Shown: positions 3,601-57,450 of the stretch, piece after piece
Position numbering within the stretch: position 1 is the first letter of the stretch
Layout: each line of letters opens with the position of its first letter
DNA from: Echinarachnius parma
Lineage: Eukaryota; Echinodermata; Echinoidea; Clypeasteroida; Echinarachniidae
Assembly: GCA_037951105.1 (NCBI GenBank)
Contig: JBAMJV010002920.1
Location: forward strand, 186,001 to 250,000
DNA: 64,000 nucleotides
Direction: 5' to 3'
The notes under the pieces: model-generated
The model's database searches: none
Told to the model about the DNA's origin: nothing
What the model saw: the letters and a program-made list of their open reading frames with translations, nothing else
Program-made: the position numbers and the translations under genes

Positions 3601-6600
3601 CCACCCTGTATTACTCACAGTTTGCCATATAAATATCGGCAGGATTCAAATGGCAATGGGGTGAATTGTTGGTAACAATGACGCTTTGCTTTAAATTGCC
3701 TGAAATATTAGGACCACATTGTGTATTATACTCACAGTACTGGTAGAATTTCTTGGTTCCCTGGCAAGGGAGAGCTCGTAGATTTCATCCTCTGTGTATT
3801 GCAGGTCTAGCGACGCCTGACAAAATACAAAATATGGTTCAGAAGTATAATAGTCTCAATCAGTAGATCAAATTATTATTAAAGTAAAAGGGTGATTAGT
3901 ATGCTCTCAATTTCATCATTAAACAAATATTTTGGCTGATAATTATTGCTGTTTAGTATCTGAAATGTGCTTTATCTCAAATTATATATTTAAGCTTGTG
4001 TTCTTTTGTTCTGGCGGAGAAGGGAGATAGATGATCGGGGCAGTTCTATTTGTTTGATGCATTCTCCATTGACTCAAGCCAAGTCAGGCCTAGGCCTTGA
4101 GATATTAACCCATTCAAGATGATTTGATTTTGATATAACATTCATTCTCCAAACATCACAGCCCAAACAAATTATATTGGGAGTCTAGGACCAGTCTTAA
4201 ATAGGTTAATAAGCTTTCAGCTTTATGGTGACCGCAAGTAATACATGAGAAGATAGGGAGTAGGAAGAGGAATTGGGGAGTTAGAAACATGTGAGAGTGA
4301 AAGTGTATGTGGTGTCAGGTACAGGTGCAGAGTATCCGGTGGTAGGTGCGGGACGAGGGCTGATGGGTGTGGGATGTGGGGTTGAGGTGTGGGTTGCTGG
4401 GTTGCTGGGTATAGGGTGTGGGTTGCTGGGTATAGGGTGTGGGGTTCTGGGTACGGGGCATGGGGTGTTGGGTATGGGGTGTGGAGCATTGGGTGTGGGG
4501 TGTTAGGTGTGTGGTGATGGTTGTGGTGTGATGGGTATGGGATATGGAGTGATTGGTATGGGGTATTGGGTGTTGGATGTGGGGTATGGGGTAATGGGTA
4601 TGGGGTGTGGAGTATTGGATGTGGGGTGATGGATATGGAGTATTGGGTGTTGGATGTGGGGTGTGTGGTATTGGGTATGGGGTGTGGAGTATTGGATATG
4701 GGGAGTGGGGTGATGAGTGTGGATGGTTGGATGTGGAGTGATGGATATGGGTACGTATTGGATGATGGATGTGGGGTGTGTGTGGTATTGGGTATGGGCA
4801 GAACTGCCAAGTTCCATTTGAGCATTTCAGTATACCCTTCATGAGCACGTTCATATAAAAGTTGGTTCTGTCGATCACATCAGCATTTTTATGATTTTTT
4901 TTGTATTTGTGTTATATTTTAAATATGTATCATGTATCTTTAGAAATAGTTTATCAGGGTTGAACGTGAATTGTGTTGCCATTGTCAGATCGTTACTATT
5001 AAAAGAAAGAAAGGAGAAGAACAAAATATATATATTTTATTTATTTTTTGCTTTTTTCTTCTTTTTTTTTTTGTTTTCTTTTTTTTTCTTTCCGTATTTA
5101 TTCTTTACAAATCGTACTTCCGTATTTACATCAAAAAATCGTACTAAATACGGAAAATCTGTACTACTTGGCAGCTATGTATGGGGTGTGGAGTATTGGA
5201 TGTGGGTTGATGGGTGTGGGGAAATGGGTATGGGATGTGGAGTGTTGGGTGTAGGATGATAGGTATGGGGTATTGGGTGTCGGATGTGCGGTGTGCACTT
5301 GTGGGTATGGGTGTGGAGTATTGGATGCGGGGTGAGGGGTGTGGAGTATTGCATGTGGGGTGATGAGTGTTGAGTATTGGGTGAGGGGGTGTGGAGTGTT
5401 GGGTGAGAGGGTATGGAGTGTTGGGTGTTGGGTATGGGGTGTGGAGTATTGCATGTGGGGTGATAAGTGTTGAGTATTGCATGTGGGGTGATGAGTGTTG
5501 AGTATTGGGTGAGGGGGTGTGGAGTGTTGGGTGAGGGATGTGGAGTATTGCATGTGGGGTGATGAGTGTTGAGTATTGGGAGAGGGGGTGTGGAGTGTTG
5601 GGTGAGGGATGTTGAGTGAGGGATGTGGAGTATTGCATGTGGGGTGATAAGTGTTGAGTATTGCATGTGGGGTGATGAGTGTTGAGTATTGGGTGAGGGG
5701 GTGTGGAGTGTTGGGTGTGGAGTGTTGGGTGAGGGATGTGGAGTATTGCATGTGGGGTGATGAGTGTTGAGTATTGGGTGAGGGGGTGTGGAGTGTTGGG
5801 TGAGGGAAGTGGAGTATTGCATGTGGGGTGATGAGTGTTGAGTATTGGGTGAGGGGGTGTGGAGTGTTGGGTGTTGGGTGTGGGATGCAAAGACAGAGAA
5901 TGAGTGACTCACCCTCAGCATATTGACTAGGTCCATGTTGGCAGCGAGTGGAGGTTTAACGTTCTGAAGCTGCATCAACTCAGCGAACGTGACAGAGAGC
6001 TGCGCCATCTTGCGCATGTTGAGCTGGCCATCCTCCGTCCTGTCAGGTAGCGCTGTGTGCAGCAGGATCAGGTCCTTCATATGTACCCCTGCAGGGAAAT
6101 CAAGCAATCAATCAATTCAACCATTGATTACAGGAACATTGTGGGCCCTGAGTTAACCATATGGGGAATGTAGCATTTAGTTATTAAGAGATTAAGTTTT
6201 TTCATCTTTTTGCACAAGAATACAATTGTTTAACTTGCATTATGGCTTGAAAATATTATGGGAAAATGCTGAAAATCAATCAGCCTATTTCATCACTTAT
6301 ATTATGTACCCAAAAATAATGACTGGTTATATAGTTCTGAAAAAAGCATGGTTAAATAATATACTGAAAGCTGTAAATCCACTATAAAATATTACATATT
6401 AATATTACAGTTGAGTAGATACCATACATGTATATACAATCCTAACTGCAAATATGCATACATTTTGTGCTCAAACAGAGCAAAAGGAAACGTTAGGCAT
6501 CTCTATCAACTTGATATGGTGGGAGCTATTTAAACTTTCAACAGCAGGCAAATGTTATTCTCAAAAACATTCTAATAAACATGAGCGAATGGGACAGAAT

Positions 6601-12600: not shown

Positions 12601-15600
12601 TACATTCCCAGGGAATAGGGAACAAGATATTACATGCACACACCTGCTTATCAGATTGCCCTGTAGGAACCAGCCTGGCCATACTCTGGATACAAACCTA
12701 ACCGGTGGCATAGCGTGGACCAACTGATGGAGGGGGGGGGGGGGGCACACACATCATTATGGGGGCCCTGGGGGAAGGCTTTTTGCTTTCTTTATTTGGG
12801 GGAATTTGTGTATGTTTTTTTAAATTGTGAATTTATGTTTTTTTAAATTGTATTTATGTTTTATTTTTTAAATTTCATTCATGCTTTTAAAAAGAAATGT
12901 ATGTTTTTTTAGCATTTTGTCAAATTATTGCCAGGGGAACATGTGAACCCCATGTCCCCTAGCTGTACCACTGAACCTCACAGCACACAGCCTACATCGT
13001 AGACCTAATCAGTCGACTACGTCATTATAGAAATTCATGCTACAAGGGGAAAATAAGCAAAATGCTTTAAATAGGTCTCTGAACTATGGTAAACTGAGTC
13101 TTGTTATCGTTGAGATACACATGCCCTAACAGTCATACAAAGCCCTTGTCAGATATCACCGAATAGCATTGGGTAGGGATAGGGGTGGTACAGTTTTGGT
13201 AAAACTGAATTTTAGTGACCAAAACCTGCACCATAACATTACAAACTAATAGTTATAACACCGCCATGCTCAAAAGGTATACAAAATACGACTAAGTAAA
13301 AAAGCCTGTTATCATTACAAAAGATCCATTAAGACACAAGAGGGTGCTCTCTAAGAAACAGGGATGCCAGTGGCAAATGGGCCTGAAAATGTGTGGAGAC
13401 TTAAAATAATACAAGCGCATAGAGACATGCTTCTGCAATGTGATATGCGCTATATAAGAACTGTTTATTATTATTATTATTATCACAAGCGCGAAGCGCA
13501 CATCACAAGCGCGAAGCGCGAAGTCACTTTAGTCGGGGTCCAGGGCCCGCTTTAGGGCCCTGGAAGCTCTGGGGTTCCAGATGCTCTCTGGTGCAATCTG
13601 AGCCTATTTTGGGGATCATATCCCTTTTTAAAAATATGTTAAAAAAAAAAATTTAAAACAAATCGTTTTTAAATTTTTTTTTTATAGCTGGAATTTGTGT
13701 TAAAAAAAACGGAAAAGCCGGAATTCCGGCTATAGCCGGAACTCTGGCATCCCTGAAAAAAGCATTGGTTTCAACCATTAAAACAAATGTGCATGTGATG
13801 CTTTGTTAAAATAATGATTACATTTTTGAAAAAGTGGAAGCATTTTGATAGTTTTTCTTAAATTATTGAATAAATGTGGGATCCCACAGAAGTAGAAAGA
13901 GAAGGATAAGGAGGATGAGGAGGAGGAGGATGTTGGGAGAATAAGAGGCATTATTTCAAACTCACATTCAATCTCCTGAAAATCTTGTACTCGAGGAATG
14001 TTAGATGATCTGCCAGTTCTTTGGGTTCTAGATGGTTGAAGACGAGAGACACTTTGCGGTTGGTTCTCACCGATGGGTTCCGCACAGAGATAACTCGCAT
14101 CCAGTCATATGACGGTCTGTAGGTTTTCATTATCAGCAAAAGGGGTTGATACAAGTATTACAAAAAACACATTTGGACAGTTTGTAATACCATAGGGCCA
14201 GTCGGATGATGGTCTGTAAATTATCATTAACATCAAATGGTTTGGCTCAAGTAACAGTTTAAGCATTTAAGCATTTAAGCATTTAAGCCTTTTCGGACTA
14301 GTCACAAAATATATGAGCTCTGGTCTGTGAAAATGCAATTTACATGAACCATGATTATCATTGATTAAAAAGAGAATTCAAACATATAAAAGAAACTGAC
14401 TAGAAATATTTTAATGATTGAAGATGAGCAAAGAAAAATAGGCTTCGCTGGGAATCAAACCCGAGACCTCCGGATAGCTAGACTGGTGCTCAATCCATTG
14501 AGCCACAAAGACCCTTGAATGGGGGACGTTCCCATGAAACCCTTTTCATTGCTTGATTAGTCAGAAGCTATATAAACCAGGCACTAACCCAAGGATAATT
14601 AAATCAACTTTTCTAGAGAAAGTGCGAAGTGATGCAGCTTTTTATTAAATAAATTCAAACATAGAGAGGAACTGACGAGAAATATTTTAATGATTGAAAA
14701 TGAGCAAAGAAAAATAGGCTTCTCCGGGAGTCGAACCTGAGACCTCCGGATCGCTAAAGATTTCAAGGGTCTTTATGGCTCAATGGGTTGAGCACCAGTC
14801 TATTAATCCGGAGGTCTCGGGTTCAATTCCCGGTGAAGTATATTCTTCTTTGCTCATTTTCAATAATTAAAAAGAGAACGAATATCAAAAAGAAGAAAGT
14901 CATATTGTTTTGTTTTTCAATATCAATAATTGAAAGAAAAAACTTACACATTGGAAATGTCAACGACATGTTTGAGATGAGTATTGCCTTCTGATTGGAT
15001 GACCTTTTGAAGTTGCCCCATGACCCCCGCCAAACCCTGGTCAAGGTCAAAGTGCATGGGGAAGTTGATAATCCAGTACCTGGTAAAGAGTCAACAACAA
15101 TAATAATAACAATAACAATAACAATAGCAATATCAATGTTGAAATGATCACATGATATAATTAAATGACTTTTTGAAGTTGCCCCATGACCTGTGCACAG
15201 TGCCTTGGGAGGTTGATAATCCAGTACCTGGTAAAGAGTCAACAATAATAATTTTTAAATTATTACATTAAATTATGGGATGACTTTTAAAGTAGACCCA
15301 TGACCCCGCAAACCCTTGGTCAAGGTCAAAGTGCATGGGGAAGTTGATAATCCAAGACCTGGTAGAGAGTCAACAATGATAATAATGTTTAAAAATATAA
15401 CATTTCTTTTGTCAGAAAATAAAACTCACAGGTGGATTCGTTGGGGATCAAACCCATGATCTCCTGATTACTAGACAGGCATCATAACCACTAGACCCCC
15501 AACAACAACGATAATACTGATAATAATATAATGCATTCATAATAAAGTCAGCATATAAGGGGCTTGAAGAATACATATTTACAGTTTGTGTTCAAGTTAC

Positions 15601-21600: not shown

Positions 21601-24600
21601 CAAAACTGTCTCAATTATATTTGTCAGAATACCTTTAAGGGGAATATGCTTTATATAACCCGTTGCTTACGGGAACAGGGTGGGCTATGTACAAAGTCTA
21701 TGGGAATTTCAGAATGTCGAAAGTAATGGGTTAATTATAATGATAATAATGGTGGCTACTTATTTAGCGCACTAATAGATGCTAAATATATGACCAGTTA
21801 ATATTATTCTCTGTTCAAACTTGTATTCAATTTGCTGATTTGAACAAATCAGTTCACATCTACAGAAGATTACTATTACTTGACCCATTCAAGACAGTTT
21901 GACATGGTATAGCATAGAGCCCTAAATGAGCATTGTCGGGACCAGTCCTGAATGGGTTTATTGTATTAAGCCGATATCTCCTACCAGAAACTAACTTTTC
22001 TGTTCAACTACGAGAGATTAATGCAATTCCTTGCATGTCAATAATAAGAATCTCATCTAGGAACAAAAGATACATTTTCTAAGCAAATTGAGCTACCTAG
22101 CACAAATAATTGTTAATTCCTCCGAACATTTTATTTATTTATTTTTTATTTTTTTTGGGGGGGGGGGGGGGGGGGGGCAAGGGTATATTCTATTCGGGCA
22201 AATCGACTTTGAAAATTCCTGATTTTACTTGCCCAAATAAACAAAATTTACTGTGGAGGCTTGGTATAGCACACTTTCTCCATAGACCTCTACATTGAGC
22301 ATTGTCGGGACCAGTCCTGAAAGGGTATATGGTTTTAACCTGATATCTCCTTCATATTGAAATACATACATATTACATAGTTAAAGGGATTTAGTAACTT
22401 TGCTGACAAGTTCAAAATCTGGTGAATGGTTGAAGAAATGAGTATTTTCGTGAGCTGATATGTCACTTGAAATATCAACATGAAATTTTCACACATAACT
22501 TAAATAAAAAACAAAAATACACATTTTATCAACCATTCACCACTTTTTGCACGATCCCTTTAAAAGGAAGATACACTATATTTATATTAATTATTGCCTC
22601 CGGGAATAGACTGGAATTTTTTCACCACGAATGTGACATCACACATGATGGCGGAGAGCAGCTCTCTGATATTATTCAACAAATTATATTTAGATGAATT
22701 ATTCCCATAATAGACGGGGACCCAACCACATGAATTGGACATCAAACATGGCAAAATGCAAGCAATTTTAATTATTCAAAGACACGATGATCAAAATAGA
22801 AAGAAAGTCTTGGAAAAATATTCATTTGCTATCTGGAAGACACACTGGCTAGCCTTCAGTCTATTATGGGATGCAATAATTTATCTTTGTAAATGGGCCC
22901 CTGGGGAAAAGCTGTTCAATCATTCCATGACAAAAACTGTGATGCTAACCAAGTAAACAGAGTAATCTATTCACTATGCACTTGGGGGACATTCAGAGAA
23001 AGAAAACTTTCCAAATATATACATTTGCAATATTCATGCAGAGGCATGCTTAAACCAAACTCCTTCAAATACATTTGACAAACCTCTTATTTTTTACTAC
23101 CAATCCATTTTAAACATAGAACATATCTTGAAGTTCAAAAAATACTAAATGTACTATTAAAAAAAGTGCCGTATGATATGAATGTGAAGAAAGTAACAAA
23201 TCAAAATCACATAAAATACATTTTTTTCTTCAAATATTCATGCACAAACATACTTAAATATCACAATCTACCTAATAAAGACAATCTCACAACCATAAGT
23301 TTTACACTCCATATCCGTGTGCACTAACATAGTAAAAATGTCATAATGAATAACGTGTTGAAGAAAGTTCTAAAAACAAGAAAACATTCCAGTCATATTA
23401 TATCAAACTAATATCCATAAGATTGAACCAGAAGAATAATCTAAAGTGGACTTACTTGAGTGCGTGGCATATTCTCCTCTTCTGAATGTTAATGTCACAT
23501 TCGTTGTCCTCGGCGGAGTGGGAACATTCCTCCTGGATACATACTGACTTGGTGCAATTCTGGTACGTACTTAGGAGTCAAGGAAAAGCAACATCAAATA
23601 GAACAGGTGGGACAAGAGGTTTTTTGAAATTTTAACATAGATACTTATGAAGAAAGGATATTTGCTTATATCATACTTGATGTACAAAGGCAGACATTAG
23701 TATTGGGGTACCGTAATCACACATACATGTATTGGAAACACAATTTATAAGACTAATGCAATGTCATACCTTGACAACAAATTGTCACCAAAATGATGAT
23801 TGATTAGGGAAATTTGGAAAATCACATTATTGCCACGCTATTAAAACTAGTGACACATTTCAAGCAAAGTTCATTTTTTAAAAATGCAGATTGTATAACT
23901 ACACTAATTTTACATCTACCTTAGATTTCAATCATGCAGCATATGTTTTCATCATAAAAAATAGAAGTAATTTGTAGAAAATAAGAAATTCTGACATTAT
24001 ACAATAAACTACTGTATAGGCCATATATTTCGCTGATATATACTTTCGACTTTACGTCAATTTTGAGAGTGGTTAGATTCGCGTTCGGCTGTTACCAACA
24101 CGCATTCATGACTGTCTTGAGAGAGAGATGCTAGTGCAGTAATGCATGCAATAAAGGTACGTGTATTACTTTGCATTTGGTGTAAATTTTGAGATTCGCA
24201 AGTGATTCACAAATGTGATTCGCCAAAATAAAAAATCCTTGCGAAATATATGGCGTATACAGTAACTGATTCCGGAATTTCAAAATCATACATGAAGTGT
24301 ACAGTAAGTCTTCATACAATATCTACATGAAACAAACACACAAAAAAAAACTGGGAAAATCATACTGCCATGTAAAGTGTTTAGTAGCCTATATATATTA
24401 CAGAAAAGCTATGGTTAGGGGCACATTTCAATTTCTAAACACTGGCCGTAAACGAGTGTATATGGGTCATATGACAGCTTCACCATTCTACTGTGAATGT
24501 CAATTCTTCCAGCTAGATTGCTGGGAGGAACAGAACAAGAAGCATGCTTCTCTCTCTATGCCTGTTAGATTGGACTTGGCTAATTCTTTGTGGCGTAGCA

Positions 24601-27600: not shown

Positions 27601-30600
27601 TCTCAACCAACGATATGTCACATGGAGGTCACATGGAGGTCACATGGAGGTCACATGGAGGTCAAGTACCAACAAAGTTACCAATGTCCTTCAACACATA
27701 TTCTATGTGTACTACTTGTGTAGCATCTTCATTTCATACTTGACAGAAACAACTACAAAATTCACAGGTCCACGCTATTTCTAATAGAGTGGAAAACAGC
27801 TGAGGTTGTTTTTGGTTTGAGGGTGAACAAATAACTTGTTAAATAAACCTTTCTCTGTAACAAAGTCTCAGCTGACATAGGATTAAGCCTTTAATGAAAT
27901 ACTCCCCCCTTAATATCACTTGTCAATCACACAAATCCAGTTAAGTGAAGGTGTCCTCCAGCAATGTAAATGCACTTCAACTAGACACAGGACACTGTAA
28001 AGAATTTGCAAACCAATCATTATTATTACCCTGCTGTGTTGCCCACACAAAGCTGACATCTAATGCATAAACTACGAAGTACTTTGATAAAATGGTATTA
28101 AAAGATGTATTACATTAATTATTTAAAACATATATGCAAGACCACTTAATAGTAGTTTTGTACAATTGCATTTTGTATTTCTTGTACATTGTTAATATCT
28201 TAATGTAATTTTCAAAAGTGAAATTGTTATGATACAACTTGTAAACAAAAATCACTGTAAATGATTATTAAATGTAGTTAGCACTTTGTTATTTGTCATT
28301 TGTCATTTTGGTGAGCTCTAAACATTGTCTCATAGATAACTACGCTTACATGCAAAATCTAACCACCAAGATGAAAACAAGAGCCCTCACATTTCAGCAA
28401 TGATTTTCCTATCAAATGGATTGAAAATATTAAAGTTTTTATCTTATTTATATTTTGTAGGGAACCTGGATAGTGAGCATCAAATGAGGGCTAAGTTTCT
28501 TGCCAAAGGACACGTGTGATGAGTCGGGTATTGAACCCATGACCTTATGATATAATGATGAAGGCCAACCAAGATACCATGCCTGGAAGAGGGGAGAGAA
28601 AATGGAAAGAGAGAGAGAGGTGATGGTGAAGAGAGGAATCCAATGAACCAGTGGCCTAGTGTGGTCGTACTGATTGGGGGCATGTAAAATATTGCTGGGG
28701 GGCACACCATGTTTAGTTCTTTATTTTCCCAGATTTTGCACTCAAATGTTTTCTATTTTTTTTGTCAAATTATTGGGGCCACATGCACCCCCCCCCCCCC
28801 CCCCCCCAGCTGTGCCGAAGTCCACTCGCACCATTGTGTCACATAAGAGGTCATTGACACATTATTTTAGCCCAGTAGACCAGACATAACCCATAAAACA
28901 AATTTTAACAAATATTTAATTTGTAAACCCTTTTTTTCTTTATTTATAGATTCATATGAACCTCACTCTTTGTATCGTTCAAAACTGCAATTATGGATGA
29001 GACTTGTCATTAAACAAAGTATTTTATTTTCTCATTCTGTTATTTCAGTTTGAAAATCTAGTTCAAACCACCAAATTGTTATTTCTAAACTGTTTTACTG
29101 GCCTGACACCAAATTGTACTGACCCTAGACCAGCCCTGCACATAATTTTACTCAGGGCTCAACACTATAGCACTTGCTCGCTTTCCAAGGGAAAGTTAAA
29201 ATTGAAGTTGGGCAAGCAACATTTCGGTCAAATATCCAAAATTTGATTTTTCAATGATACTATATATAGAGATCTTATTATGCACCAATTCTGTATTTGA
29301 AAAGGTGATACTGAGGGTTTAAATCATTCTTTTTAGGCAGTGAAAGAATGTGTGATACACATACAGTATATCATCAATAAACCTAACATTGCCAAGGACA
29401 GAAATTGAAAGATAAAGGAATCAGATGAGCGTAGAAGAATTTCACATTCAAGTGACAGAGAGTGAACCATGGAAAGAAGAAGATTCAATAACCAAGTATG
29501 TTGCCATGGCAACCACATTGTCCTATATCTCGAGGGAAGATTTATTCCCAACAAAATTAATAGCATCGATGAATTAACTCTGTCTTGTGAAGACTTGTTC
29601 CACTCATTATGCCCACGGCCCCCTTCCCCTCCAATCTCGGGTAGAAGGAATGGTTGAGCCACGAGACGTGAAAACAGATATATTGGTTCCCGAGAAGCAC
29701 TGCTACATTTAGAAGGGGAAATCTAAAATAGGAAACTTCCATCACAACTACGATATAAATACACATTTAATTGCATGAATATAGAAGGTTGGCATAACAA
29801 GGTGCAAAATTTGCCACTCTGCGATATTTTGTAGTTGTTGCTGTTATTATCGTACTTGGTAGTATTTAATTGTTGTTGCCGTCACTATCATATAACATCT
29901 AGCTTATGTTGCCTGCAGAAAGCACTTTCCATATTAGGCATAGTTGTCAATAGTAGGAAAAGGTTAACAAATAACATGCCCTTTCTGTTCAAGTGAAACC
30001 GGCATTGCATCCCTCCAAAATATTTCCCCATCTCGACCTTTCCCGAAATAGACTTACATATTTAAAATATACACATTCACACATGCACAACCACAACATA
30101 ATTCACTCTTTCAATATTTCTCCTTGCATCCTCTCTTTCTCCTCCCTCCCCCTCCCCCTCTCTCTATCTCCCTCAGTCCAGCTCTAGTAGCCTGTTCTCT
30201 CAGCCCCCTCTCTCCCCTTTACCCCCTCTTGCTCCCTATATCTTCCTCAGTCTGAGCTATTGTAGCCTGTGCCCTCCTCTCTCCATCCGTCCTTCACCCC
30301 TCCCCCTCTCTATATCTCTAGTAGCCTGTGCTCTCCCCCCCACCCCTCCCTCCTCTCCTCATCCCTCCCCATCCCCCCCCCCCCCCCCCGTCTTCCTCAA
30401 TCAGAGCTCTAGTAGCCTGTGCTCTCCCCCCCTCCCCCTCATCCCTCTCCCTCCCCATCCCCCCCCCCCCTGTCTTCTTCAATCAGAGCTCTAGTAGCCT
30501 GTGCTCTGAGAAGGTCAAGGATCAATTGCTGTGTGCTCGGCTTAGCAGGGGCTCAGCCGCACGCCCCAATGCACCGCAAAATGGGGCGAGCTAGCACCAC

Positions 30601-48199: not shown

Positions 48200-48700
48200 T
48201 TAAGCCGTTAGAACTCTACACCCAGGCCAGATCACAAACAAAAAACATTTCTGTGAAGATCCTTTTCTTACAACTCCTTCCATTCCCAATCAATCATTAA
48301 GCAGTTAGAATCCTACACACAGGCCTGATCACAAACAAACAAAACATAACTGGGATAACAATTTGTATTACATTTGTATTCATACTCGATGAATGATTAA
48401 GCAGTCGCAATAAATATTCTACACCCAGACCTGATCACAAATGAAAAACCATGCCTAAGCTAACCCTTTTCTTACATCTTCTTTCATTCCAAATGAATCA
48501 TTAAGCAGTTAGAATCCTACAACCAGGCCTGATCACAAAACACACATAATTGTGATAACAATTTTATTACATTTGTAGTCATGCTCGATGAATGATTAAG
48601 CAGTGGCAATAAATATTCTACACCTAGACCTGATCACAAACGAAAAACACGCCTGAGCTAACCCTTTTCTTACATTTGTTTTCATTCTCAATAAATGAAT
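48200..48700. repeat. degenerate higher-order tandem repeat (~95-bp subunits)
   Basis: CATTAAGCAGTTAGAATCCTA, CCAGGCCTGATCACAAA and ACCCTTTTCTTACAT recur at ~48200, 48295, 48395, 48490 and 48590, alternating two subunit types (~190-bp period). A further fragment (TTCTACACCCAGACCTGATC) at 48811-48830 lies beyond an F1 insertion. Confidence 0.88.
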
Positions 48701-49217: not shown

Positions 49218-49311
49218 AATAGTAAATATATAATCCATTGCGGATATAGTATCGGAAATAATATCGCTAATGATATTCGCTTGTCTCGCAATGTAAAACT
49301 AGGAATCTAAA

Positions 49312-49354
49312 CGATCACGACGTTTCGTATGCTACTGCAATACTTTGTCAAATG
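49312..49354 (-). ncRNA. degenerate hammerhead-like motif (first of four in array 1)
   Basis: Minus strand: TTGACAA, a bulged hairpin GTATTGC-AGTA-GCATAC, then GAAA, then CGTC. This is the order of a type I hammerhead core (CUGANGA, stem II, GAAA, stem III). ATCAT upstream can pair with GTGAT downstream as stem I. C3 and G8 of the consensus are T and A here, so cleavage is doubtful. Further copies at 49774, 50236 and 50698. Confidence 0.4.
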
Positions 49355-49378
49355 ATAATATCGAATGTAGACACTCGG

Positions 49379-49388
49379 CTTTTATGCT
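49379..49388 (-). promoter_or_regulatory. TATA-like box of the array monomer
   Basis: Minus strand GAGCATAAAAGCC, with CCAATCAGCGG about 80 bp upstream and a second CCAAT box (opposite strand) nearby. The hammerhead-like motif begins ~25-65 bp downstream. This spacing suggests a Pol II promoter in each monomer; inference only. Confidence 0.35.
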
Positions 49389-51143
49389 CTACCGTGGCTC
49401 CCAACATCACAATCTCGCATGAGCGATTGCGTTCCTGATAGGTCAACAACGGAACCCGCTGATTGGCCGGTGCACACGGGCAAACAACCAATCAACGGAA
49501 CACTGGATCGGCCCGCCTAACGAAACAGCGTACGATACGTCGCCACGACACTACCCCGAACAACCGGCCCACAACGGTTGATGCCAAACCCACGGCAGAA
49601 CCCCCCTAGCCACCTTCTCGCTACAACGCTCATATCTACGTATCAATTTCAGGGCAGGGTGCCCGTATGTTCAATCAATAATAGTAAATATATAATCCAT
49701 TGCGGATATAGTATCGGAAATAATATCGCTAATGATATTCGCTTGTCTCGCAATGTAAAACTAGGAATCTAAACGATCACGACGTTTCGTATGCTACTGC
49801 AATACTTTGTCAAATGATAATATCGAATGTAGACACTCGGCTTTTATGCTCTACCGTGGCTCCCAACATCACAATCTCGCATGAGCGATTGCGTTCCTGA
49901 TAGGTCAACAACGGAACCCGCTGATTGGCCGGTGCACACGGGCAAACAACCAATCAACGGAACACTGGATCGGCCCGCCTAACGAAACAGCGTACGATAC
50001 GTCGCCACGACACTACCCCGAACAACCGGCCCACAACGGTTGATGCCAAACCCACGGCAGAACCCCCCTAGCCACCTTCTCGCTACAACGCTCATATCTA
50101 CGTATCAATTTCAGGGCAGGGTGCCCGTATGTTCAATCAATAATAGTAAATATATAATCCATTGCGGATATAGTATCGGAAATAATATCGCTAATGATAT
50201 TCGCTTGTCTCGCAATGTAAAACTAGGAATCTAAACGATCACGACGTTTCGTATGCTACTGCAATACTTTGTCAAATGATAATATCGAATGTAGACACTC
50301 GGCTTTTATGCTCTACCGTGGCTCCCAACATCACAATCTCGCATGAGCGATTGCGTTCCTGATAGGTCAACAACGGAACCCGCTGATTGGCCGGTGCACA
50401 CGGGCAAACAACCAATCAACGGAACACTGGATCGGCCCGCCTAACGAAACAGCGTACGATACGTCGCCACGACACTACCCCGAACAACCGGCCCACAACG
50501 GTTGATGCCAAACCCACGGCAGAACCCCCCTAGCCACCTTCTCGCTACAACGCTCATATCTACGTATCAATTTCAGGGCAGGGTGCCCGTATGTTCAATC
50601 AATAATAGTAAATATATAATCCATTGCGGATATAGTATCGGAAATAATATCGCTAATGATATTCGCTTGTCTCGCAATGTAAAACTAGGAATCTAAACGA
50701 TCACGACGTTTCGTATGCTACTGCAATACTTTGTCAAATGATAATATCGAATGTAGACACTCGGCTTTTATGCTCTACCGTGGCTCCCAACATCACAATC
50801 TCGCATGAGCGATTGCGTTCCTGATAGGTCAACAACGGAACCCGCTGATTGGCCGGTGCACACGGGCAAACAACCAATCAACGGAACACTGGATCGGCCC
50901 GCCTAACGAAACAGCGTACGATACGTCGCCACGACACTACCCCGAACAACCGGCCCACAACGGTTGATGCCAAACCCACGGCAGAACCCCCCTAGCCACC
51001 TTCTCGCTACAACGCTCATATCTACGTATCAATTTCAGGGCAGGGTGCCCGTATGTTCAATCAATAATAGTAAATATATAATCCATTGCGGATATAGTAT
51101 CGGAAATAATATCGCTAATGATATTCGCTTGTCTCGCAATGTA

Positions 51144-51629: not shown

Positions 51630-52170
51630 TACAAAATGTGTAAGCTCCCCAAAATACATAGAGGTACCAAGTTTGAAGGTATTACGTCAGCCGGTTCTTG
51701 AAATATCGCAATTACGAGCTATTTCTGCATATATATATATATATAATGAACCCTGTGACCTTGACCTATGATCTCATGACCCCAAAATCTACTCAGTTCA
51801 TTAGCTCCCCAAGATACGTACAGGTACCAATACAGGTATCAATGGTATCTGTCATCAGGATCTTGAGATATTGTGCTTACACAAGCTATAATTGAATATA
51901 TTTAATGAGCTCTGTGACCTTGACCTTTGATTTCATGACCCCAAAATTTAATCAGCTCATTGGCACCCCAAGATACATATATATGAACCAAATTCAGATC
52001 ATTGTTACCCTGTTATTTTCACACATACCAAGCTTCAAATTGATCCATCAATTGGTTCTAGAGATATCGCGTGAAAGATAACGGATTAACAGGACAGACG
52101 AACATACGTACGGACGGATGAACAACCCAAAAACATAATGCCTATCTATGGCCACTTCGTTGGCGGAGGT
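51630..52170. repeat. interspersed repeat with TGACCTTGACCT boxes
   Basis: Two ~150-bp subunits (AGCTCCCCAAAATACAT ... CTGTGACCTTGACCTATG ... CATGACCCCAAAATCTA) followed by ACAGGACAGACGAAC...AAACATAATGCC and CCACTTCGTTGGCGGAGG. The same phrases are widespread in marine invertebrate genomes from memory. The TGACCT repeats resemble nuclear-receptor half sites. Confidence 0.75.
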
Positions 52171-53438
52171 ATAACTATAATATCACTTGATATATCATTA
52201 TAACACATCATTCTCATGATCTGACTCTCTCTCTCGTCCTATCTACAAGGTCACATATCTGGTGCCTGGGATGGTGCAGATAATTAAAACAGAAACAATT
52301 AGCTAATTACACACAGGGGCACTATCACTCATAATAGCCCACCAAGGAGACGTGCTGAGAATACATCCCTCAATTTGGGTTTCTTGGCAAGCGGCCGGCC
52401 GTCTCACACCAGAAGCATTCCATGTGCATAGCCAAGCATCCTCATACAAGCTCAGAGACAACGTCGCCATAGCAGCGAGATATTGATTTATCCCCATCTA
52501 TTAATCGTTAATGGCAATCCAATGTCATTGTATGGACATGTGAATGATGGGTTTGGGGTTGGTGTTGGGGAAATATGTACAGTAGGTAGTGGCAGTGGTA
52601 GTGCCGGCCATGATAAAGATTAGATATGAGAAGAGAAAGACCTGGGGTAAGTATAAAGAAACATGACATTTTCATTTGCAACACAGATTTGGGTGTTATT
52701 TTTCTAACCCTTACCCTAACCCTAATCATAACTCAAATATCTAATCATAAACCCAAACCTATCTTTCACTAAAAATGATACCATGGCAAACCCTGGGTTT
52801 GATTACCGATAGAGGAAATGTTGTTTCACTGGCAGATTGATCCATGGTTCATTTTAGAGCACTGATCCATGATCACTTGTTTATGGCAACCAGACAAAGG
52901 TTGCGCTCATTGTGAGGGGGGAGATCGAGCGCTTAAACAATGCCCCTCCATCTTCGACATCGTTGATCTATGGCAGAGATCTCATTACAGGGAAAGGTTG
53001 TGAGAATAAAAACATGGTTGACTAACTGAATTCCCCTCTCACAGTAAAGTACAGAGTGTGACCTTCATATGAGTGAGCCTGGGAGATGGAAAATTATAAT
53101 GAGAATTTCTTCGTGCCTACACCAAGGTAGAAATTATAGCCCCCATTATTGCTTCACATGCCTCTATATGAACTGCAATTTTCTCCCGTCATCATTATTC
53201 TCCCTCTCATCATGTTTTCAGCACTTTCTCTCCACCATTTTACCTCGCTCCTTTTCTCTCTCTCTCTGATATACATCAATAAATGGTTTTAAATATGCTC
53301 TGGAACTGCATCTTTCTTTCTTTCTCTCCTTGCGAGGAAGTATATAATTCTCATAATTGCTCTTCCACTTCTTTTTTCATCACTTTCTCTTAACCATCTC
53401 TCTCTCTGATAAACATGTATATCCATATACTGTACATC
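52171..53438. other. no gene seen; possible conserved non-coding patch
   Basis: 52290-52520 is compositionally richer than its surroundings and contains TTAGCTAATTA and GATTTATCCCC motifs but no repeat or coding pattern. (TAACCC)-like phrases at 52708-52725 are short. CT-rich sequence at 53240-53400. Confidence 0.45.
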
Positions 53439-53450
53439 TATTCACTTTCT
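53439..53450. repeat. left target-site duplication of array 2
   Basis: TATTCACTTTCT, identical to 56284-56295. Confidence 0.82.
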
Positions 53451-56283
53451 ATCGGAAATAATATCGCTAATGATATTCGCTTGTCTCGCAATGTAAAACT
53501 AGGAATCTAAACGATCACGACGTTTCGTATGCTACTGCAATACTTTGTCAAATGATAATATCGAATGTAGACACTCGGCTTTTTATGCTCTACCGTGGCT
53601 CCCAACATCACAATCTCGCATGAGCGATTGCGTTCCTGATAGGTCAACAACGGAACCCGCTGATTGGCCGGTGCACACGGGCAAACAACCAATCAACGGA
53701 ACACTGAATCGGCCCGCCTAACGAAACAGCGTACGGTACGTCGCCACGACACTACCCCGAACAACCGGCCCACAACGGTTGATGCCAAACCCACGGCAGA
53801 ACCCCCCTAGCCACCTTCTCGCTACAACGCTCATATCTACGTATCAATTTGAGGGCAGGGTGCCCGTATGTTCAATCAATAATAGTAAATATATAATCCA
53901 TTGCGGATATAGTATCGGAAATAATATCGCTAATGATATTCGCTTGTCTCGCAATGTAAAACTAGGAATCTAAACGATCACGACGTTTCGTATGCTACTG
54001 CAATACTTTGTCAAATGATAATATTGAATGTAGACACTCGGCTTTTTATGCTCTACCGTGGCTCCCAACATCACAATCTCGCATGAGCGATTGCGTTCCT
54101 GATAGGTCAACAACGGAACCCGCTGATTGGCCGGTGCACACGGGCAAACAACCAATCAACGGAACACTGAATCGGCCCGCCTAACGAAACAGCGTACGGT
54201 ACGTCGCCACGACACTACCCCGAACAACCGGCCCACAACGGTTGATGCCAAACCCACGGCAGAACCCCCCTAGCCACCTTCTCGCTACAACGCTCATATC
54301 TACGTATCAATTTGAGGGCAGGGTGCCCGTATGTTCAATCAATAATAGTAAATATATAATCCATTGCGGATATAGTATCGGAAATAATATCGCTAATGAT
54401 ATTCGCTTGTCTCGCAATGTAAAACTAGGAATCTAAACGATCACGACGTTTCGTATGCTACTGCAATACTTTGTCAAATGATAATATCGAATGTAGACAC
54501 TCGGCTTTTTATGCTCTACCGTGGCTCCCAACATCACAATCTCGCATGAGCGATTGCGTTCCTGATAGGTCAACAACGGAACCCGCTGATTGGCCGGTGC
54601 ACACGGGCAAACAACCAATCAACGGAACACTGAATCGGCCCGCCTAACGAAACAGCGTACGGTACGTCGCCACGACACTACCCCGAACAACCGGCCCACA
54701 ACGGTTGATGCCAAACCCACGGCAGAACCCCCCTAGCCACCTTCTCGCTACAACGCTCATATCTACGTATCAATTTGAGGGCAGGGTGCCCGTATGTTCA
54801 ATCAATAATAGTAAATATATAATCCATTGCGGATATAGTATCGGAAATAATATCGCTAATGATATTCGCTTGTCTCGCAATGTAAAACTAGGAATCTAAA
54901 CGATCACGACGTTTCGTATGCTACTGCAATACTTTGTCAAATGATAATATCGAATGTAGACACTCGGCTTTTTATGCTCTACCGTGGCTCCCAACATCAC
55001 AATCTCGCATGAGCGATTGCGTTCCTGATAGGTCAACAACGGAACCCGCTGATTGGCCGGTGCACACGGGCAAACAACCAATCAACGGAACACTGAATCG
55101 GCCCGCCTAACGAAACAGCGTTTCGTTGTTGACCTATCAGGAACGCAATCGCTCATGCGAGATTGTGATGTTGGGAGCCACGGTAGAGCATAAAAAGCCG
55201 AGTGTCTACATTCGATATTATCATTTGACAAAGTATTGCAGTAGCATACGAAACGTCGTGATCGTTTAGATTCCTAGTTTTACATTGCGAGACAAGCGAA
55301 TATCATTAGCGATATTATTTCCGATACTATATCCGCAATGGATTATATATTTACTATTATTGATTGAACATACGGGCACCCTGCCCTCAAATTGATACGT
55401 AGATATGAGCGTTGTAGCGAGAAGGTGGCTAGGGGGGTTCTGCCGTGGGTTTGGCATCAACCGTTGTGGGCCGGTTGTTCGGGGTAGTGTCGTGGCGACG
55501 TACCGTACGCTGTTTCGTTAGGCGGGCCGATTCAGTGTTCCGTTGATTGGTTGTTTGCCCGTGTGCACCGGCCAATCAGCGGGTTCCGTTGTTGACCTAT
55601 CAGGAACGCAATCGCTCATGCGAGATTGTGATGTTGGGAGCCACGGTAGAGCATAAAAAGCCGAGTGTCTACATTCGATATTATCATTTGACAAAGTATT
55701 GCAGTAGCATACGAAACGTCGTGATCGTTTAGATTCCTAGTTTTACATTGCGAGACAAGCGAATATCATTAGCGATATTATTTCCGATACTATATCCGCA
55801 ATGGATTATATATTTACTATTATTGATTGAACATACGGGCACCCTGCCCTCAAATTGATACGTAGATATGAGCGTTGTAGCGAGAAGGTGGCTAGGGGGG
55901 TTCTGCCGTGGGTTTGGCATCAACCGTTGTGGGCCGGTTGTTCGGGGTAGTGTCGTGGCGACGTACCGTACGCTGTTTCGTTAGGCGGGCCGATTCAGTG
56001 TTCCGTTGATTGGTTGTTTGCCCGTGTGCACCGGCCAATCAGCGGGTTCCGTTGTTGACCTATCAGGAACGCAATCGCTCATGCGAGATTGTGATGTTGG
56101 GAGCCACGGTAGAGCATAAAAAGCCGAGTGTCTACATTCGATATTATCATTTGACAAAGTATTGCAGTAGCATACGAAACGTCGTGATCGTTTAGATTCC
56201 TAGTTTTACATTGCGAGACAAGCGAATATCATTAGCGATATTATTTCCGATACTATATCCGCAATGGATTATATATTTACTAT
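53451..56283. mobile_element. array 2: fold-back tandem multimer of the same 463-bp element
   Basis: Direct arm 53451-~55120 (3.6 monomers, ribozyme sense on the minus strand) joins an inverted arm ~55121-56283 (2.5 monomers, sense on the plus strand). The join AACGAAACAGCGTTTCGTT is itself palindromic, and about 110 bp of monomer is skipped there. The right end, read inverted, finishes at the same AATAGTAAATATAT terminus as the left end of array 1; the left end is truncated (ATCGGAAATAAT). Flanked by a 12-bp duplication. Hammerhead-like motifs occur on the minus strand at 53512, 53975, 54438 and 54901, and on the plus strand at 55222, 55685 and 56148. Confidence 0.6.
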
Positions 56284-56295
56284 TATTCACTTTCT
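56284..56295. repeat. right target-site duplication of array 2
   Basis: TATTCACTTTCT. Its first two bases overlap the possible element end, so the boundary is good to 1-2 bp. Confidence 0.8.
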
Positions 56296-57450
56296 CTTAA
56301 CCATCTCTCTCTCTGATAAACATGTATATCCATTTTTCAAAAATATATATATATAAGTGAAAAGGGGACCAATACATACAGCTTCGGCTTCTTCCTATAT
56401 ATAAATAAATATTTTGCAAAGAATAATCATAAAGACAGTTTTTCGACCTGTGCCTTTTATCATTTGGAGGAGCCAAGGGAGGAACATTGTTTAAAGCAAA
56501 GCTATTATTTCTTCCTTTTCAATTATTTATGATTATTCTTTGCAAATTATCACAAACTCTCCCTCTTTCTCTTCAAAGATCTCTTTTATTTGAAGTTATT
56601 TCAATCTCATTCTACAATATTCTCTCTCCCCCTCCCTCTCTCTGCCGAGCTCTCCAACTCTCTCGCTGGTAGGCTGGTATTCCTACGAGCACCACGCAAA
56701 TTACATGTACAAGCATATCAATGACACGGTGCAATGCCTTGCTGCGGACTGATTGCAATAAATCAGGCGACTAATAAAAGCGTTTATCACAGCCAGGACT
56801 TATCTTATTTGTCATCTGTCTCCTCATATTTACCTCTTGTCACGCTCAGGTGTCTGTCACACATTCTACTTTTTTTTTTTTTCACTTTCTATTTTTTTTT
56901 TTACCACTACTAGTATTTGTATCCTATCATCCAGTTACAAGTATGCCTTTTAACACATTCAAGGCGACTTGACTTTGGTTATGACATGCAATCTCCATAC
57001 ATCCCAGCACAAGTATTTTCTAGTGTAGTCCAGAATTGGTTTACATATTGATTTTGGTTTTACACACAATGACTAATCAGGCCTGAATGTGTTAATAAGG
57101 TAGGAATAAAGTATAGAGAATGAAAATGGAAATATCTGCAAATACTTTTTTTAATATTTGAATCACTATTAAATTTTCAAAAAATTGTATATTATCAATA
57201 TTCCTTTTTTATCCATACTAAACCCCTTGAACTGATATTTCAAGATAATTGCCTATGAGTTTGATTGGCATGTTCAAATACTGCTGTCTATTGAAAAACC
57301 CAAGTCAATTAATTTCATTACAATATTTGAATCTATTTTCACTTGACTGCTGTAAAGCATTTTTAATGAACGTTCAATAAATAATTGGCAGGCTACTGTA
57401 ATAGACAGCAATATTTGAACATGCCAATCAAACTCAAATGCACTCTTATC
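56296..57450. other. no gene seen
   Basis: CT-rich tracts (56530-56660), a complex unique stretch (56690-56830) with GATA-like motifs (CTTATCTTA), and a long F1-type hairpin (56949-57095). A ~90-bp inverted pair (CCTATGAGTTTGATTGGCAT near 57253 and ATGCCAATCAAACTCAAAT near 57420) suggests a further palindromic MITE. Confidence 0.5.
56949..57095. mobile_element. diverged hairpin MITE, family F1
   Basis: TTAACACATTCAAGGCGAC ... CAGGCCTGAATGTGTTAA; the matched ACACATT/AATGTGT change is present in both arms. Confidence 0.7.

Follow-up and report, generated by a model that had tools for sequence, protein, structure and literature searches.

The origin of new satellite arrays is an old question, and the array of 462-bp units analysed here raises it: did the array grow where it now stands, or did it arrive as a ready multimer? 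In the window, by which we mean the whole 64-kb stretch of DNA that was analysed, a sequence-only reading had described four 462-bp units plus 78 bp at 49218-51143, enclosed by an 11-bp direct repeat, and both observations were confirmed. All of the full units (4/4) are identical, the trailing 78 bp repeat the beginning of the unit without a difference, and the flanking match, AATGAGTATTT, is perfect and exactly 11 bp long (Table 1). When both strands of the 64 kb were searched, only one exact copy of AATGAGTATTT was found beyond these flanks, at 22437. The duplication can be counted as 8-11 bp, because the element could equally own one base on the left and two on the right. A 199-bp tandem repeat (48215-48687, 2.4 copies, 85% match) stops approximately 500 bp before this insertion, and no 14-mer is common to that repeat and the 462-bp unit.

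The same monomer, in a 463-bp form, makes up a second insertion at 53451-56284, which the sequence-only reading had missed. Tandem Repeats Finder reported the monomer at 53450-55121 and, in the opposite orientation, at 55120-56287, such that the two arrays abut head to head. The 11-mer ATTCACTTTCT occurs only twice in the window, and both copies flank this insertion; the duplication is 11 bp, 12 bp with one extra T, or approximately 8 bp if the element takes the shared bases. Because the target of insertion 2 contains a 47-bp direct repeat on either side (53380-53426 and 56287-56333), this duplication is less clean than that of insertion 1, and the simplest reading is that the two-copy 47-bp repeat predates the insertion, which fell at the start of the second copy. 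An 84-bp motif (GTGACCTTGACC...) is present twice between the two insertions, at 51737-51979; its copies lie 159 bp apart, have diverged (87%) and look older.

Table 1. Positions of the two insertions, their target-site duplications and the head-to-head junction in the window
Feature	Start	End	Strand	Remarks
Target-site duplication 1, left copy, AATGAGTATTT	49207	49217	n/a	
Insertion 1	49218	51143	-	Four 462-bp units, all identical, and a further 78 bp; strand is that of the putative RNA sense, with the putative RNA 3' end at 49218 (presumed polarity)
Target-site duplication 1, right copy, AATGAGTATTT	51144	51154	n/a	
Target-site duplication 2, left copy, ATTCACTTTCT	53440	53450	n/a	12 bp counting the T at 53439
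Insertion 2, forward arm	53451	55119	+	~3.6 units of the 463-bp form, beginning at unit position 34; inner limit uncertain by a few bases
Head-to-head junction	55109	55127	n/a	AACGAAAC-AGC-GTTTCGTT, perfect inverted repeat (arms 8 bp, loop 3 nt)
Insertion 2, reverse arm	55120	56284	-	~2.5 units, ending at unit position 1
Target-site duplication 2, right copy, ATTCACTTTCT	56285	56295	n/a	

As a control for the flanking matches, pairs of positions were drawn at random, with 3 nt of slack at the boundaries, and match length was scored to at most 20. Across the window, a match of 11 or more was found for 16 of 20,000 pairs, 8 of the 16 at the maximum of 20 and presumably in tandem repeats, and among pairs drawn around the arrays it was found for none of 18,765, the best match being 10. 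Flanking matches of 11 and 12 bp at two arrays are very unlikely to have arisen by chance. We are confident that staggered cuts of approximately 11 bp received multimers that were either preformed or freshly copied. To this extent the sequence-only reading, which had proposed the insertion of a ready multimer in the manner described for retrozymes, is well supported, and the second block with its own duplication strengthens it.

The units themselves indicate how each block was formed. When the 11 full or partial units of both insertions were aligned, four fixed differences separated insertion 1 from insertion 2, one extra T and three substitutions, which were present in every insertion 2 unit covering them, and the variation inside insertion 2 was restricted to one C-to-T change at a CpG in one unit and one difference at the head-to-head junction. 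Given this near-identity within the blocks and the fixed differences between them, each insertion therefore traces back to a single monomer and has since accumulated few changes, and both insertions appear young. Homogenisation within each block after arrival may alternatively have been a source of the unit identity. The monomer (462/463 bp, GC 47.4%, in arrays of 4.2, 3.6 and 2.5 copies) has an observed/expected CpG ratio of 1.43, compared with 0.53 in the window, and none of the 244 same-size windows outside the region reached this value, the highest being 1.20. Such a high CpG content would fit a recent arrival or an unmethylated source.

When 49218 is taken as unit position 1, the outer ends of insertion 1 are at positions 1 and 78 and those of insertion 2 at positions 34 and 1, position 1 being the end that both share. 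Under random ends, the agreement of same-direction outer ends within 3 nt (n = 2 insertions) has P = 0.030 and the placement of all four outer ends inside 78 nt has P = 0.020, and since the two tests are non-independent and were picked after inspection of the data, they provide moderate evidence. The four outer junctions show microhomology of no more than 1-3 nt. When the outer termini were compared as inverted repeats, they matched at only 7/30 and 10/30 positions, which disfavours a transposase needing terminal inverted repeats, and ends made by a transposase were rejected for lack of inverted termini. Inspection of the sequence revealed no poly(A) or simple-repeat tail at either insertion. 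A tail of this type is common, and not universal, in target-primed retroposed (SINE-like) copies, and the target-site duplications of 11 and 11-12 bp are of the kind such copies carry.

The account that we tentatively favour is that a small, non-coding mobile repeat, which moves as a multimer, was recently inserted twice, independently, with an RNA template the more likely one. One 462/463-bp monomer would be copied repeatedly off a circular or multimeric template, resulting in a string of units, and this string would enter a staggered nick or break of approximately 11 bp, the repair of which would leave the duplication. Insertion 1 would be a plain head-to-tail string, and the head-to-head form of insertion 2 would have arisen because the string turned back on itself or because priming occurred on both sides of the target. 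RNA is a likelier template than DNA, and we suggest, with some reserve, that reverse transcription at the target copied a circular or multimeric RNA. The transcript would come from the reverse strand of the unit, priming at the target would take place at or close to unit position 1 of this transcript, and synthesis would halt at variable points; the machinery may have been borrowed from a LINE or a Penelope-like element. The remaining ends vary (78 and 34), as expected of incomplete copying, which counts for this account; the presence of only two copies, the lack of a known ribozyme for circle-making, the lack of a tail, the short microhomology at the outer junctions, the lack of a reverse transcriptase in the motif scan of the window and the less clean duplication of insertion 2 count against it. 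A TATA-like motif, [CT]ATAAA, is found only on the reverse strand of the monomer, the putative sense strand, and CCAAT is found once on each monomer strand. A reverse-strand promoter would agree with position 1 as the RNA 3' end, which is a weak indication, motifs this short proving little. Multimeric cDNA made off circles is the published retrozyme model, as set out in passages of PMC7761336. A more specific form of our account, which is rather doubtful, is that of a hammerhead-free, retrozyme-like animal element, whose 462-nt circle, made by a ribozyme of a new type or by a host route, would be reverse-transcribed for several rounds at a nicked target, inserting short arrays head to tail or, with both target ends priming, head to head.

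The structure of insertion 2 bears on the manner of copying. Its forward arm is approximately 1,670 bp long and its reverse arm approximately 1,165 bp, the perfectly complementary long arms have 74 nt in between, and an inverted repeat with 7-bp arms and a loop of up to 8 is absent at all 463 start positions of the monomer. The junction looks like a strand that folded back on itself and resumed on the reverse copy, which can be produced by reverse transcription or by DNA repair. Of the two arms, the one with its outer end at position 1 (reverse) is the shorter and the one with its outer end at position 34 (forward) the longer; a simple snap-back begun at position 1 would not give that, and this counts against the favoured account. 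For L1, twin and dual priming are described as sources of an inverted copy enclosed by a single pair of duplications, and dual priming from two RNAs has been proposed (PMC2837659). Priming from both sides would fit a head-to-head copy with its two outer ends no more than 34 nt from position 1. For insertion 2, simple twin priming on a single linear RNA was considered and rejected. Because the outer ends (34) and the inner end (approximately 238) demand of one linear RNA a gap of approximately 259 nt or an overlap of approximately 204 nt, two templates or a circle fit insertion 2 better.

The main rival is a DNA route, in which extrachromosomal circles of the monomer would be amplified by rolling-circle replication and the linear concatemers captured at staggered double-strand breaks, where fill-in of the overhangs would generate the duplications. 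Every block being traceable to one monomer is consistent with this route, as is the absence of a tail, and the head-to-head fold-back is of a kind reported in DNA break repair, there as very short inserts (PMC11724301). Circle excision and rolling-circle amplification have also been put forward for satellites of Tribolium, the homogeneous multimers of which are regarded there as recent insertions (PMC5844308). However, captured concatemers are expected to have random ends, yet here one end is shared (P ~0.03) and the ends are clustered (P ~0.02), and the near-equal lengths of the duplications at both insertions suit a fixed stagger. We consider the DNA route somewhat unlikely.

Mutator-like elements make duplications of 8-11 bp, and the duplications observed here, 11 and 11-12 bp and shorter when the shared bases are given to the element, agree with those of a foldback or Mutator-like element. 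The two blocks could accordingly be read as copies of a non-autonomous DNA transposon of this type, with inverted arms made of tandem repeats, insertion 1 being a one-armed derivative. The long inverted tandem arms of insertion 2 point in this direction, and such arms are possessed by Tetris and Tm1, the duplications of which are mostly 8-10 bp (in passages of PMC4079207 and PMC3169594). This reading is nevertheless improbable, as the outer ends fail as inverted repeats in both insertions and insertion 1, which is without an inverted arm, has a perfect duplication nonetheless. Since matching inverted ends were looked for and were not found, the insertions were not classified as a foldback transposon.

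The other part of the sequence-only reading, the hammerhead of a retrozyme, did not survive. Short tandem monomers, a GC content below 50% and a duplication longer than 4 bp, all of which recall the elements described in PMC7229834, would be accounted for by a genuine metazoan retrozyme whose hammerhead is degenerate or unrecognised. However, the hammerhead core CTGANGA is absent from both strands of both insertions, and the one single-mismatch candidate, a plus-strand site with GAAC 34 nt further on, was judged not credible. A search of insertion 1 against Rfam with E values up to 10 gave no match, and at the gathering threshold no match was found in the arrays, insertion 2 included, the only hits in the whole window being two tRNAs outside the arrays. 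In the positive control for Rfam, loci with a tighter hammerhead pattern yielded a type I hammerhead in 1 of the 12 scanned (from at least 80 loci), the remaining 12 Rfam matches being 11 tRNAs and a twister, and loci with a looser pattern yielded none in the 10 scanned (again from at least 80). The sensitivity of Rfam is therefore weakly controlled, and the missing core letters are the stronger evidence against a hammerhead. The RNA of metazoan retrozymes is strongly self-paired and expressed in circular form, and excess folding as a circular RNA was not observed for the two monomers on either strand (z = -0.17, -0.5, -0.44 and -1.5, 100 shuffles each). Because the hammerhead was looked for and was not found, the insertions were not classified as a retrozyme, and we consider this identity very improbable. 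Least probable of all is that the flanking matches are accidental and that the blocks are an assembly artefact or a satellite grown locally through unequal crossing-over. Homogenisation or a collapsed or misjoined assembly might also yield identical units, but there are two separate blocks with a flanking match of 11-12 bp each and no 14-mer of the unit occurs anywhere else in the 64-kb window.

The monomer has little coding potential. Stop-free runs in the repeated monomer reach at most 83 codons (plus strand) and 61 codons (minus strand), and an endless reading frame through the monomer was rejected on this basis. A Pfam search with a 79-residue piece, up to E = 1, found nothing, and no reverse transcriptase came to light when the six frames of the window were crudely scanned for motifs. 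No relatives of the monomer were detected by exact patterns in viral contigs and prokaryote genomes or by blastn of the dimer in phages and plasmids, and these non-animal collections carry little weight. Neither the monomer nor hammerhead-free tandem insertions with duplications were recognised in word searches of open papers, which is weak evidence of absence.

Elsewhere in the window, the frame at 5175-6107 on the minus strand resembles RAS guanyl-releasing protein 1 over part of its length (PDB 4l9m, E 1.7e-14) and was given no Pfam family; long degenerate minisatellites of the GTGGGG/TATGGG type lie in and beside it (4398-5884). Together with the low CpG of the window, this similarity suggests an animal source. 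The two Rfam tRNA matches, at 14771-14838 (+) and 15433-15499 (-), are in opposite orientation approximately 600 bp apart, one of them clear (43.1 bits) and the other at the threshold (29.5 bits). A perfect 11-bp tandem repeat, GTCACATGGAG, is present in 4.4 copies at 27617-27664.

The two young-looking blocks suggest that a single insertion can bring in a whole satellite array at once and leave the landing site still readable. If the template was a circle that does not need a hammerhead, circle-borne elements would be a broader group than is visible to the ribozyme search behind retrozymes, and a check for flanking duplications could then be made on many short arrays that are filed as satellites.

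Several known systems resemble these insertions in part. The dispersed satellite multimers of Tribolium are likewise homogeneous, short and thought to have been inserted into euchromatin, whereas their duplications are mostly 3 bp, in elements of probable transposon origin (PMC5844308). The W-elements of Schistosoma are satellite-like tandem repeats thought to be mobile, with duplications in an exemplary case, but some of those families bear type I hammerheads with functional evidence (PMC8490949). Tetris and Tm1, which are Foldback or Mutator-like, share inverted arms of tandem repeats and duplications of 8-10 bp (PMC4079207, PMC3169594), in contrast to the insertions described here, which have no matching inverted ends and of which the first runs in a single direction. 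Twin- and dual-primed L1 insertions are similar in having an inverted copy between one pair of duplications and in their truncation (PMC2837659), and differ in that here there is no poly(A), the monomers are in tandem and the internal junction is a fold-back. Compared with metazoan non-LTR retrozymes, our element has no hammerhead core, no excess RNA structure, one head-to-head copy and a monomer of 462-463 bp, slightly above the 150-450 bp of animal repeats with type I hammerheads (PMC7229834). It resembles them in its short non-coding monomers, head-to-tail multimers, GC content below 50% and duplications, which are longer than 4 bp in retrozymes when present (PMC7229834). At the level of DNA structure the element works like a retrozyme, without this being proof that it is one, and the published retrozyme model, in which circles are copied into multimers (PMC7229834), is like the account that we favour here.
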